From contig CAIOYC010000009.1 of assembly GCA_903862425.1 (NCBI GenBank), forward strand, positions 310,001 to 374,000: a stretch of DNA of 64,000 nt, in the 5' to 3' direction. Source of the stretch: an uncultured Caulobacterales bacterium. Its GTDB lineage: Bacteria; Pseudomonadota; Alphaproteobacteria; Caulobacterales; Caulobacteraceae. A model generated the notes under the pieces. It had not been told where the DNA came from. It worked only from the letters and a program-made list of their open reading frames with translations, and made no database searches. Within the stretch, counting starts at the first letter, position 1; every line of letters starts with the position of its first letter. The translations under genes were made by a program, and so were the position numbers. This document shows, piece by piece, positions 2,141 to 10,197 of the stretch.

Positions 2141-3418
2141 TTGGAAATCGGGAACGGGCAGAGCCTGATCGGACTGGTCGTGGTGATGGGAATCTGCTGG
2201 CTCTTGTCGGAAGACAAGAAGCGGTTTCCGTGGAAGCTGGCCATCGGCGCCCTGGTGGTTCAGATCGGCCTCGTGCTGCTGCTGTTCGGCGTGCCGCCGG
2301 CGCGCAGTGCGCTGCAAGGCGTGGGCGCGGCGGTGGACGGGCTGTCGAGTTCGACCCAGGCCGGCACCGCCTTCGTGTTCGGCTATCTGGCCGGGGGCGA
2401 CCAGCCCTTCCCCACGGGCATCGCGGGCGCGCCCTTCGTCTTCGCCTTCCGCGTCCTGCCTGTGATCCTGGTGGTGTGCGGGCTGTCGGCCCTGCTCTGG
2501 CACCTGCGGGTGCTGCAGTGGATCACCCGCGCCTTCGGGTTCGCCTTCCAGAAGACCCTTGGCCTGCGGGGCCCGCCCGCCCTGGCCATCGGCGCGACCA
2601 TCTTCATGGGGCAGGTGGAGGGGCCGATCTTCATCCGCGCCTATCTCGACAAGCTGTCACGTTCGGAGCTGTTCATGCTCATGTGCGTGGGGATGAGCTG
2701 CGTCTCCGGCTCCACCATGGTCGCCTACGCCACCATCCTGAAGGCGACCCTGCCCAACGCCGCCGCCCACGTGCTGACCGCTTCGCTGATCTCCGCCCCG
2801 GCGGGGGTGCTGCTGGCGCGGATCATGGTGCCTCCGGGCGAGGTCGAGCAGGGGGGCGACGCGCCCTTCGGCAACGACAACCGCTATGACAGCGCCATCG
2901 ACGCGGTCAGCCACGGCATCGGCGACGGGTTGCAGGTGGTGCTGAACGTGGGCGCGACCCTGATCGTGTTCGTGGCCTTCGTGGCCATCGGCGACAAGCT
3001 GCTCGGCCTGATCCCGCCCATCGGCGGCCAGCCAGTAACCATCGAGCGGGGCCTCGGCATCCTGTTCGCGCCTCTGGCCTTCGTGATCGGCGTGCCATGG
3101 AGCGAGGCCGGAACCGCGGGCGGGTTGCTCGGCACCAAGCTGGTGCTGACCGAGTTCTCCGCCTTCATCAAGCTCGGCGCGATCCCGGCCGGCGGGCTGT
3201 CGGAGCGCACCCGCACCATCATGACCTACGCCCTGTGCGGCTTCGCCAATGTGGGGTCCGTTGGCATCAACGTCTCCGGCTTCTCGGTGCTGGCGCCCGA
3301 GCGTCGCGGCGAGATCCTTGCTCTGGTGTGGAAGGCGCTCATCGCCGGCTTCCTCGCCACCTGCCTCACCGCCTCGATCATCGGCGCTATGCCTCAGGCG
3401 CTTTTTCACGGACACTGA
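2141..3418 (+). CDS. Concentrative nucleoside transporter (NupC/CNT family)
   Basis: A 425-residue inner-membrane protein with many hydrophobic helices. It contains CNT signatures such as FMGQVEGPIFIRAYL and GMSCVSGSTMVAYATIL in the first half, and ALCGFANVGSVGINVSG plus GLLGTKLVLTEF in the second half. Family members import nucleosides with Na+ or H+. The start is a TTG at 2141, chosen because it precedes the first helix and no suitable ATG lies nearer. Length fits bacterial CNTs (about 400-430). It is followed after 29 bases by a glutathione transferase gene on the same strand. Confidence 0.9.
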   Translation: MEIGNGQSLIGLVVVMGICWLLSEDKKRFPWKLAIGALVVQIGLVLLLFGVPPARSALQGVGAAVDGLSSSTQAGTAFVFGYLAGGDQPFPTGIAGAPFVFAFRVLPVILVVCGLSALLWHLRVLQWITRAFGFAFQKTLGLRGPPALAIGATIFMGQVEGPIFIRAYLDKLSRSELFMLMCVGMSCVSGSTMVAYATILKATLPNAAAHVLTASLISAPAGVLLARIMVPPGEVEQGGDAPFGNDNRYDSAIDAVSHGIGDGLQVVLNVGATLIVFVAFVAIGDKLLGLIPPIGGQPVTIERGLGILFAPLAFVIGVPWSEAGTAGGLLGTKLVLTEFSAFIKLGAIPAGGLSERTRTIMTYALCGFANVGSVGINVSGFSVLAPERRGEILALVWKALIAGFLATCLTASIIGAMPQALFHGH

Positions 3419-7143: not shown

Positions 7144-7794
7144 TCACCCGAGCGCGCCGCCGTGCTTGCCGAGGGCGCCGGGCCAGGGCGCTCCGGGCGG
7201 GGGCAGGCCGTCTTCCTGCAGGGCGCGGGCGACTTCGGCCAGGCAGGCGGGATAAAGCCGGTGCTCTTCGGCCAGGACCCGCGCGGCCAGGGTCTCTTCG
7301 GTATCGCCGGGCAGGATCGGTACGCGCGCCTGGCCGAGCGGGGGGCCGGCGTCGAGTTCAGCGGTGACGAGGTGCACGGTTACGCCCGCCTCTGCATCGC
7401 CGGCCTCGATGGCGCGGCGGTGGGTGTGCAGGCCGGGATAGAGGGGCAGCAGGCTGGGGTGGATGTTCAGCATCCGGCCCGACCAGGCACGGACCAGGAA
7501 GGGGGTGAGGATGCGCATGTATCCGGCCAGCACCACCAGTTCCGCGCCGGCCTTCTCCAACGCGGCCTGCAGGGCGTATTCGTGGCGCTCGCGGTCCTTG
7601 CCGAAGGGGCGGTGGTCGATGGCCAGCGCTTCCACGCCCGCCGCGCGCGCCTTGGCGAGTCCGCCCGCGTCCGGGTTGTTGGACAGCACCAGGACGATAT
7701 CGGCCGGATAGTCCGCCGCCTTCGCCGCCTCCACCAGCGCCATCATGTTGGAGCCGGAGCCGGAGACCAGGACCGCCGTTCGCACCCGCCTCAT
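7144..7794 (-). CDS. purN: Phosphoribosylglycinamide formyltransferase PurN
   Basis: A 216-residue cytosolic enzyme that transfers a formyl group from 10-formyltetrahydrofolate to GAR in purine synthesis. The N-terminal phosphate loop is [14 protein letters not shown]. The catalytic Asn and His are in [14 protein letters not shown], and the essential Asp is in [14 protein letters not shown]. Its ATG overlaps the purM stop (ATGA), so the pair is translationally coupled. The ATG at 7794 is chosen over a longer frame because the family begins just before VLVSGSGSN. Confidence 0.96.
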
Positions 7795-8816
7795 GCAGCG
7801 CGCAACTCGCCCACCACCCAGGCCTCCTCGCCGGCCTCGAGCAGGGCGGCCAGGGCCTCGTGCGCCTTGTCGGCGGCGGCGATGACCACAAAGCCGATGC
7901 CGCAGTTGAAGGTACGGCGCAGTTCGTGATCGGAAATCCCGCCGGTCTTCTGCAGCCACTCGAACACCGCGGGCAGGGGCCAGGCGTCCCAGTCGAAGTG
8001 CGGGACGAGGCCCGCGGCGATGGCGCGGGGCGGGTTTTCGATCAGGCCGCCGCCGGTGATATGCGCCCCGCCCTTGATCAGGCCCCGTTTAGCCAGCGGC
8101 AGGACGGAGCGGACATAGATGCGGGTGGGGGCCATCAACGCCTGCGCCAGCGTCATCCCTTCGGCGAAGGGCGCGGGGGCGTCCCAGCCGAGGCCCGACC
8201 GCTCCACCACCTTGCGCACCAGCGAATAGCCGTTGGAATGGGCCCCGCTCGAGCCGACGCCGATCAGCACGTCTCCCGCCTTCTGCGCATCCAGCACCGG
8301 CAGGGTCTGGCCCCGCTCGACCGCGCCGAGGGAGAAGCCGGCGAGGTCGTAGTCGCCCGAACCGTACATGCCGGGCATTTCCGCCGTCTCGCCGCCCGCC
8401 AGCGCGCAGTTGGCCTGGCGACAGCCCTCGGCGATGCCGGCGACCACGCGGCGCGCGACCTCCACCTCCAGCCTGGCGGTGGCGTAGTAGTCGAGGAACA
8501 GCAGCGGCTCGGCGCCCTGAGCCAGGAGGTCGTTCACGCACATGGCCACGAGGTCGATGCCCACCGTGTCGTGCAGGCCGGTCTCAATGGCGATCTTCAG
8601 CTTGGTGCCGACCCCATCGGTGGTGGCGACGATCAGCGGATCGACGAAGCCGGCCGCTTTCAGGTCGAACAGGGCGCCGAAGCCGCCCAGGCCTGCATCG
8701 GAGCCGGGGCGGCGCGTGGACCTGGCCAGTGGCTTGATCGCTTCGACCAGCGCCTCGCCCGCGTCGATATCGACGCCCGCATCACGATAGGTCAGCCCGT
8801 TCGGAAGGTCGGTCAT
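7791..8816 (-). CDS. purM: Phosphoribosylformylglycinamidine cyclo-ligase PurM (AIR synthetase)
   Basis: A 341-residue ATP-dependent enzyme closing the imidazole ring in purine synthesis. It begins with the family opening [17 protein letters not shown]. It has the ATP-loop region [33 protein letters not shown] and [14 protein letters not shown] 8816 is preferred; a TTG at 8828 would add four residues. Neither start has a clear Shine-Dalgarno sequence. It is first in the purM-purN unit. The upstream region to rnd is filled by two palindromic elements, so the purM promoter lies very near or within them. Confidence 0.95.
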
Positions 8817-8873
8817 GTAGGGGTCCAAGAGAATCCGGCGCGGCTCTTTAACACGCGCCGAACACGGTTATAG

Positions 8874-8950
8874 CTAGTGCGGCGATTCAGAAATTCGCCA
8901 GAGCTTTGTGGAGAGTGCGATGCGAATTTCTGAATCAAAAGCCGCACTAG
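8874..8950 (-). repeat. 77-bp palindromic element, copy A (CTAG ends)
   Basis: The element starts and ends with CTAG. On the plus strand it runs: 10-bp outer arm CTAGTGCGGC, 15-bp inner arm GATTCAGAAATTCGC, 23-base loop, inner arm GCGAATTTCTGAATC, AAAA bulge, outer arm GCCGCACTAG. Both stems are perfect. Each inner arm contains a GANTC site (8884-8888 and 8932-8936), the CcrM methylation target. I call the minus orientation so that the 4-base bulge (TTTT) is on the 5' side, as in copy B. Confidence 0.9.
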
Positions 8951-8962
8951 AAATCATAGCTG

Positions 8963-9039
8963 CTAGTGTCCCTTTTGAGCCAGAAGTTCGCTCAACGCGT
9001 GACCCCGGCCACTGGCGAATTTCTGGCTCGGGACACTAG
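8963..9039 (+). repeat. 77-bp palindromic element, copy B (CTAG ends)
   Basis: It is exactly the same length and layout as the reverse complement of copy A: outer arm CTAGTGTCCC, TTTT bulge, inner arm GAGCCAGAAGTTCGC, 23-base loop, inner arm GCGAATTTCTGGCTC, outer arm GGGACACTAG. Five base pairs differ from copy A on both sides of the stem, so pairing is kept; one further A-T pair has become G-T. The GANTC sites of copy A are lost. The element ends at 9039, and the rnd start codon begins at 9040. Confidence 0.9.
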
Positions 9040-10197
9040 ATGATGACTCCAATTACCGACAACGCCGAGCTGGCGGCGTTCTGCAAGCGTATCGAAGACG
9101 CGCCCTTTATCGCCGTCGATACCGAATTCATGCGCGAGACCACCTACTGGCCGAAACTGTGCCTGATCCAGGTGGCGAGCGAGACCGACGCGGCGAACAT
9201 CGACCCGCTGGCGGATCTCGACCTGACGCCGCTGCTGGAGATCTTCGCCGACCAGAAGGTGATGAAGGTGTTTCATGCCGCGCGCCAGGACGTGGAGATA
9301 TTCCACAATCTCGGCGTGATCCCCACCCCGCTGTTCGACACCCAGGTGGCGGGCATGGCGGCGGGTTTCGGCGAGCAGATCGCCTATGACGCCCTGGTGC
9401 GCCAGATGCTGAAGATCGACATCGACAAGTCGAGCCGCTTCACCGATTGGGCGCGGCGGCCCCTGTCGGATGCCCAGCTGAGCTATGCCCTGGCCGACGT
9501 GACCCACCTTGCGGCCCTCTATCCGAAGCTGCGCGAGCGGCTGGACAAGGCCGGACGTCTCGGCTGGGTGACCGAGGAGATGTCGGCGCTGACCGACAAG
9601 TCGGCCTACGACATGGACCCGGAAAAGGCGTGGCGGCGGCTGAAGCCCCGCAAGTTCACGCCGAAGTATCTGGCGACCTTCAAGGCCGTCGCCGCCTGGC
9701 GCGAACGCACCGCCCAGACCCGCGACCAGCCGCGCGGCCGCATCCTGAAGGACGAGGCCATCGACGAGATCGCCACCCAGGCGCCCACCGATGCGGACGC
9801 CATGAACCGGCTGCGTTCGGTGCCGAAGGGCTTTTCCGGCTCCAAATTCGGGCCCGACCTGCTCGACGCCATCCGCGAGGCGCTGAAGGACCCCGAAGCC
9901 TACGCCCCGGTGATCGAGCGCGGCCCGCCGCCGGTGCAGGCGCAAGGCGCGGTGGTGGAACTGCTGAAGGTGCTGCTCAAGGCCCGCTCGGAGGACGCCG
10001 GCGTGGCCTCCAAGCTCCTCGCCACGGTCTCGGACCTGGAGAAGATCGCCGTGGACGACAACGCCCAGGTGGGCGCGCTCACCGGCTGGCGCCGCAAGCT
10101 GTTCGGCGAGGATGCGCTGAAGCTCAAGCGCGGCGAACTGGCCCTGGTGCTCGACGGCGCCAAGGTGCGCGTGGTGGAGCTGGAGCCCGAAGAATAG
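9040..10197 (+). CDS. rnd: Ribonuclease D
   Basis: A 385-residue DEDDy 3'-5' exoribonuclease used in tRNA and stable RNA 3' maturation. The exonuclease motifs are visible: I in FIAVDTEFMRE, II in VFHAARQDVEIF, III in YALADVTHLAALY. HRDC-type helical regions follow (PKFTPKYLATFKAVAAWRERTA and the C-terminal third). Length fits RNase D. The start is ATG 9040 or ATG 9043, directly abutting palindromic copy B, so any ribosome-binding sequence (a weak GGGA) would lie inside its right arm. Confidence 0.95.
   Translation: MMTPITDNAELAAFCKRIEDAPFIAVDTEFMRETTYWPKLCLIQVASETDAANIDPLADLDLTPLLEIFADQKVMKVFHAARQDVEIFHNLGVIPTPLFDTQVAGMAAGFGEQIAYDALVRQMLKIDIDKSSRFTDWARRPLSDAQLSYALADVTHLAALYPKLRERLDKAGRLGWVTEEMSALTDKSAYDMDPEKAWRRLKPRKFTPKYLATFKAVAAWRERTAQTRDQPRGRILKDEAIDEIATQAPTDADAMNRLRSVPKGFSGSKFGPDLLDAIREALKDPEAYAPVIERGPPPVQAQGAVVELLKVLLKARSEDAGVASKLLATVSDLEKIAVDDNAQVGALTGWRRKLFGEDALKLKRGELALVLDGAKVRVVELEPEE

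Follow-up and report, generated by a model that had tools for sequence, protein, structure and literature searches.

The window, a 64,000-nucleotide stretch of DNA from an uncultured Caulobacterales bacterium, carries two divergent neighbouring genes, purM (AIR synthase; 7791–8828, minus strand) and rnd (RNase D, with 3'-5' exonuclease and HRDC domains; 9043–10197, plus strand). Between them lies a complete paired-hairpin element of 166 bp that runs from CTAG to CTAG (8874–9039, no strand assigned). Hairpin 1 (copy A; 8874–8950, minus strand) and hairpin 2 (copy B; 8963–9039, plus strand) are 77 nt long, and each consists of a 10-bp outer stem, a 4-nt TTTT bulge, a 15-bp inner stem and a 23-nt loop. 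In hairpin 1, the outer stem is formed by 8874–8883 and 8941–8950 and the inner stem by 8884–8898 and 8922–8936, which enclose the loop at 8899–8921; its bulge, on the inner arm, occupies 8937–8940 and reads AAAA on the plus strand. The corresponding parts of hairpin 2 are an outer stem of 8963–8972 and 9030–9039, an inner stem of 8977–8991 and 9015–9029, a loop at 8992–9014 and a TTTT bulge on the inner arm at 8973–8976. The spacer AAATCATAGCTG (8951–8962) separates the two hairpins. The left CTAG (8874–8877) is the CTAG of the target site, which is present once at this position in the empty allele of a congener (G001), and the right CTAG (9036–9039) is surplus over that empty site. Between copies A and B, five base pairs have changed on both sides of the stem with pairing intact, and one A-T pair has become G-T. 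The loops of A and B are unrelated in sequence, whereas recent copies within one genome have conserved loops in their equivalent hairpins. Folding of A and B as single-stranded DNA gave z-scores of −7.9 and −6.9, respectively, and none of 200 shuffled sequences folded equally well. The original prediction had described these features as two 77-bp palindromes in opposite orientation with five two-sided changes and one G-T pair, and it was correct to the base.

The same prediction treated the 77-bp palindrome as the element. Its mobility and CTAG ends stood up, but the element proved to be the hairpin pair together with its spacer. BLAST located the whole 166-bp stretch once more in its own genome (G000:C2:91070-91235), as well as copies in other genera, and we rejected the idea of two independent 77-bp elements because the 166-bp unit recurs intact. 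A covariance model built from ten units (R1), which the window copy matches over model positions 1–166 with 161 bits, found exactly two units in the own genome even at a loose threshold and none in the two congeners searched. R1 matches were present in 19 of 119 relatives and were nearly always full length (163–170 bp). The second copy in the own genome (L004, about 2998–3163) is flanked by an efflux adaptor-like gene and by an outer-membrane efflux-like gene whose reading frame enters the unit and ends there.

Wider samples, searched with stricter filters so that the counts are lower bounds, contained the unit in 20 of 385 alphaproteobacterial genomes (~5%), with copy numbers reaching >20, and in 15 of 398 genomes across the phylum. 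All 15 of the latter are Alphaproteobacteria, and no unit was seen outside that class in the phylum sample. A pattern scan of named genomes for the paired-hairpin unit included, among the matches listed, Phenylobacterium, Caulobacter, Hyphomicrobium, Bradyrhizobium, Devosia, Chelatococcus, Magnetospira, Paramagnetospirillum, Acidiphilium, Parvularculaceae and others. Viral sequences yielded the unit in one contig out of 2.9 million and phage records in none, while plasmids yielded one family of resident copies on Roseibium/Labrenzia replicons and a partial match in Ochrobactrum. On the Roseibium/Labrenzia replicons the unit sits between convergent genes, one of which, for an SDR oxidoreductase, takes its TAG stop codon from the CTAG of the unit (L268, 3001–3004). 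Draft genomes understate the copy number because contigs break inside the unit, as seen in one draft (G119) whose contigs repeatedly end there (C15, C37, C72, C100, C105, C106 and C132).

The own allele reads ...GGTTATAG CTAG[element]CTAG ATGATGACTCC, and the empty allele of the congener G001 reads ...GGCTATAG CTAG CCCATGACTCC. The sequence preceding the rnd start codon, GGCTATAGCTAG, is identical in three relatives (G007, G019 and G010) and occurs as close variants in three more (G002, G020 and G021). A single CTAG likewise marks precise empty sites in G091, at a locus filled in G083 (L026; 98% identity across the junction), and in G020, at a locus filled in G032 (L017); two of the five comparisons (L025 and L037) were consistent with empty sites, but the junction sequence had diverged. 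In one case (L074), the internal CTAG of a resident unit is the exact insertion point of a unit from another subfamily. Where units stand in tandem, in either direct or inverted order, neighbours have a single CTAG in common. Among 90 clean units we observed neither duplicated sequence nor target preference beyond CTAG, and a weak test revealed no replication-strand bias of insertion, a bias that transposition of single strands might be expected to leave. Identity between copies of the same genome reached 98–99% in Parvularculaceae OFTM380, 92–99% in G093 and 90–98% in G065, and the copies in G010 and G067 are older than these. We conclude that the unit travels whole and inserts precisely at CTAG, leaving a CTAG on each side, and that movement has been recent in some genomes. 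Two further flanks were noted: one unit (L204, left flank, query 921–1013) lies in or beside an intergenic repeat of an unrelated kind that is present many times over in G083, G091 and G029, and another (L185, left flank, query 2394–2487) was inserted at a multi-copy motif ending in ...GAAAACCGGTTCCCGCTTTTCGGAACGCACTCTAG that occurs in many relatives.

These results bear out the proposal of a small, CTAG-ended, non-autonomous mobile element, which is supported by the many copies, the precise empty sites and the patchy distribution. The covariance-model search of the own genome and relatives that had been put forward with the proposal returned many CTAG-ended copies, and empty sites are present in relatives. 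We regard the window unit as belonging to a widespread mobile element of Alphaproteobacteria that is non-autonomous and MITE/REP-like, with a probability of about 0.8. Strong folding, covariation and an intergenic position could also be expected of a non-mobile structured RNA or DNA element that benefits the host as a leader, terminator or insulator. We consider this very improbable, given that the unit occurs patchily and in arrays, has empty sites and has recently expanded. None of 89 units lies inside a long open reading frame. Units showed no preference for gene orientation or gene ends (16 convergent, 14 divergent and 49 tandem neighbours), and an Rfam search of the element gave nothing above gathering score, the only hit being a chance match to mir-434 (20 bits, where the gathering score is 100).

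The 136 full units examined most often consist of a 77-nt hairpin, a 13-nt spacer and a 75-nt hairpin. Units of the main form are 160–172 bp long, with spacers of 12–15 nt. CTAG is present at the outer feet in 108 and 109 of the 136 units and at the inner feet in 104 and 100. The bulge is usually 4 nt, occasionally 3 or 5, and is found throughout on the spacer-side (inner) arm, i.e., 3' of hairpin 1 and 5' of hairpin 2. Since the bulge is confined to the inner arms, the two ends of the unit form uninterrupted inverted repeats over their outermost 25 bp, and the 136 units are, like MITEs, short, non-coding, multi-copy sequences with terminal inverted repeats. A short variant of 121–133 bp (L280–L288), found in at least four genomes, has tiny loops with outer stems, bulges and spacer unchanged, indicating that the loops are dispensable. 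CcrM sites (GANTC) are enriched about fourfold (2.4 per unit vs. 0.6 in shuffled sequences), mainly in the stem arms; we did not retain GANTC as a defining site, as it is not strictly conserved. Five single-hairpin derivatives were also recovered (L260, L261, L262, L263 and L265), of which two have lost the bulge and two are chimeras of both outer arms, as expected for deletion between repeated GAAGTTCGC segments.

The spacers resemble binding sites for IHF, whose consensus is WATCAANNNNTTR (PMC5896051). Common spacers contain AATCATAAACTTG or AAACATATACTTG, in several orders, and are close to this consensus. Two or fewer mismatches of nine were found in 84% of units, compared with 12% of shuffled spacers and 0.7% of loops. 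When each spacer was counted once, the figure was 79% of 101 (12% of shuffles), and in 31 units that had not been used in spotting the motif it was 71% (14% of shuffles). Several spacers match perfectly, e.g., AATCAACACCTTG and AATCAATATCTTG, but most units match imperfectly, commonly with AATCAT in place of AATCAA. The window copy is a poor example, its spacer being degenerate at four of nine consensus positions. From sequence resemblance, then, the spacer appears to be an IHF-like site in the family as a whole and a weak one in the window copy.

We also examined how the stems change. In the alignment of the ten units, 95.6% of cells pair and 17 pairs have undergone two-sided change; the cells with two-sided change number 45, whereas shuffles gave 17 and slid controls no more than 11. 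Single copies from seven genomes differ from their own-genome consensus by 91 one-sided changes, 60 of them unpaired, and 18 two-sided changes. Between the seven genome consensus sequences there were only 10 one-sided and 166 two-sided changes, 164 of the latter paired on both sides, in comparisons that are not independent of one another. Each of the seven subfamily consensus sequences has 49–50 of 50 positions paired, while an orthologous resident copy on the Roseibium/Labrenzia replicons has accumulated one-sided stem changes only. Resident copies thus decay one-sidedly, whereas spreading lineages keep all or nearly all stem pairs by two-sided changes and must keep or regenerate their hairpins. 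Either the mover requires the hairpin or movement restores it. The two-sided excess and the difference between changes within and between subfamilies support the earlier suggestion that the structure is under selection or subject to a copying mechanism.

Compensatory changes could alternatively stem from mutation, through template switching from arm to arm or repair of a hairpin intermediate, without selection on function. Quasipalindromes are known sites of template switching. The almost complete pairing of the subfamily consensus sequences would fit such a process, as would old units with degenerate CTAG that are still able to pair (G133). Correction would, however, erase the bulge, which persists, and the changes in resident copies (91 one-sided against 18 two-sided) show that correction at rest is slow. 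We find the mutational account improbable as a whole, although hairpins may be corrected during each transposition.

None of the transposase families tested (Y1/RAYT, IS630-type and IS4/IS5-type) co-occurred consistently with the unit in the 19 carriers, and none of them is supported as a general mover, as each is missing from several carriers. The original prediction had pointed to a RAYT or IS200/605 transposase. This suggestion found no support: Y1_Tnp (PF01797) was detected in five of the 19 carriers and was absent from the other 14, including all high-copy genomes searched in the family (G010, G065, G067, G092 and G093) and the recent pair G083/G091. A REP/REPIN-like element moved by a Y1 HUH transposase of the RAYT kind, with CTAG in place of GTAG, would explain the inverted hairpin doublets, the foot tetranucleotide, the bulge and the IHF-like centre, all reminiscent of BIMEs, and also the arrays that share ends and the lack of a longer target duplication. 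The distribution of Y1_Tnp counts against it, as do hairpins of 77 nt rather than 20–40 nt and feet of CTAG rather than 5'-GTAG, and we judge this origin to be quite improbable.

A conventional MITE of a CTAG-cutting DDE transposase would use the outer 25-bp arms as terminal inverted repeats, with the hairpins being incidental. IS630-type transposases duplicate the TA inside CTAG and IS5-type enzymes duplicate CTAG itself. Because the empty sites contain one CTAG with nothing duplicated outside it, the two outcomes are indistinguishable, and the CTAG target suits either type. The uninterrupted outer arms and their retention in both chimeric derivatives are likewise in keeping with a DDE mechanism. 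Against it, IS630-type DDE_3 occurred in eight of 19 carriers and 26 of 100 non-carriers, an association that is not significant (p = 0.17), and was absent from 11 carriers, while DDE_Tnp_1 (IS4/IS5-type), found in several other carriers, was missing from G006, G091 and G133. Carriers thus do not consistently hold the transposase that an IS630- or IS4/IS5-derived MITE calls for, and the recent unit differences between G083 and G091 are found in two genomes that both lack Y1 and DDE_3. Recognition of terminal repeats would also leave unexplained why changes between the outer and the inner arm of a hairpin preserve pairing. We consider a conventional DDE-driven MITE unlikely. R1 matches in four genomes (G010, G065, G091 and G119) included no autonomous relative with matching ends, and candidates for one, partial matches at OFTM380 contig ends, proved to be ordinary units cut by assembly. 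The mover may have been lost since, may reside on another replicon or may belong to another family.

In the mechanism that we propose for the element, a transposase acting in trans would recognise either the hairpins in their folded state, whether extruded or single-stranded, or the outer arms, which are free of bulges. Binding of IHF or a similar bending protein to the spacer would fold the unit so that its two outer ends meet, and the bulge may distinguish inner from outer arms, directing cleavage to the outer CTAGs. The cut element would then be joined to a new CTAG. A bolder reading, which we hold to be less likely than not, is that of a class-wide family recognised as a folded hairpin pair held by an IHF bend, in which pairing rather than sequence is selected and the mover is a kind of transposase not yet linked to such repeats.

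Among known repeats, the nearest kinds are the CIR repeats, the REP/BIME/RIB elements and MITEs, although the unit is a proven member of none. Architecturally it is closest to the CIR repeats of Caulobacter and Brucella (Chen and Shapiro 2003), as summarised in PMC2229807: both are alphaproteobacterial and intergenic, with two long inverted-repeat arms joined by a linker, TA termini and GANTC sites. As described there, CIR repeats are ~110 bp long with GANTC at the terminal loop, whereas the present unit measures 160–172 bp (121–133 bp in the short-loop variant) and its GANTC sites are in the stem arms and merely enriched. The CTAG feet, inner-arm bulges and IHF-like linker also set the unit apart, and we do not assign it to the CIR repeats. 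With REP/BIME and REPIN-RAYT systems it has in common inverted hairpin doublets, a foot tetranucleotide and clusters sharing ends; its putative IHF site recalls the one between the hairpins of RIB/RIP (BIME-1) elements of Escherichia coli. Its hairpins are, however, two to three times longer, its feet are CTAG rather than GTAG, its carriers mostly lack RAYTs, and it was specific to Alphaproteobacteria in the samples searched. In operation it appears to resemble MITEs as well as RIB-type BIMEs, in which inverted hairpins flank an IHF site. The RIME elements of Rhizobium, compared here by general description only, are also alphaproteobacterial and intergenic with two large palindromes, but they are ~108 bp long. 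Correia/NEMIS, RUP and QMITE elements are likewise small and non-autonomous, but they fold as a whole from end to end, not into two separate hairpins with bulges, and differ in host taxa and sequence. Correia and RUP elements have TA termini and target duplications, and Correia and QMITE1 elements carry IHF sites (PMC2229807, PMC5896051). We found no published description of this paired-hairpin family in a search mainly of the open literature, so its novelty is not established.

At the locus in the window, insertion may have had consequences for the adjacent gene. In relatives, the rnd ATG is located a few bases 3' of the CTAG, and seven of them have a TATAGC-like box a few bases upstream of the rnd start codon (region 8869–9045 in the window). 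A simple promoter scan did not find a sigma-70 consensus; judged by its conservation and position, the TATAGC looks like the −10 box of a leaderless rnd mRNA. Because the element was inserted between this box and the ATG, the mRNA would begin with the element and carry a two-hairpin leader of ~160 nt. The element would thus rewire genes, here by splitting a putative rnd promoter from its start codon.

Small palindromic repeats are common in bacteria, and to our knowledge their movement is mostly unexplained outside the REP-RAYT systems. In the present family the unit is sharply defined, its ends and its target are known, empty sites are exact and there are hosts with recent activity. With such a unit and its signature of spread and decay, whether a mover reads structure or sequence becomes directly testable.
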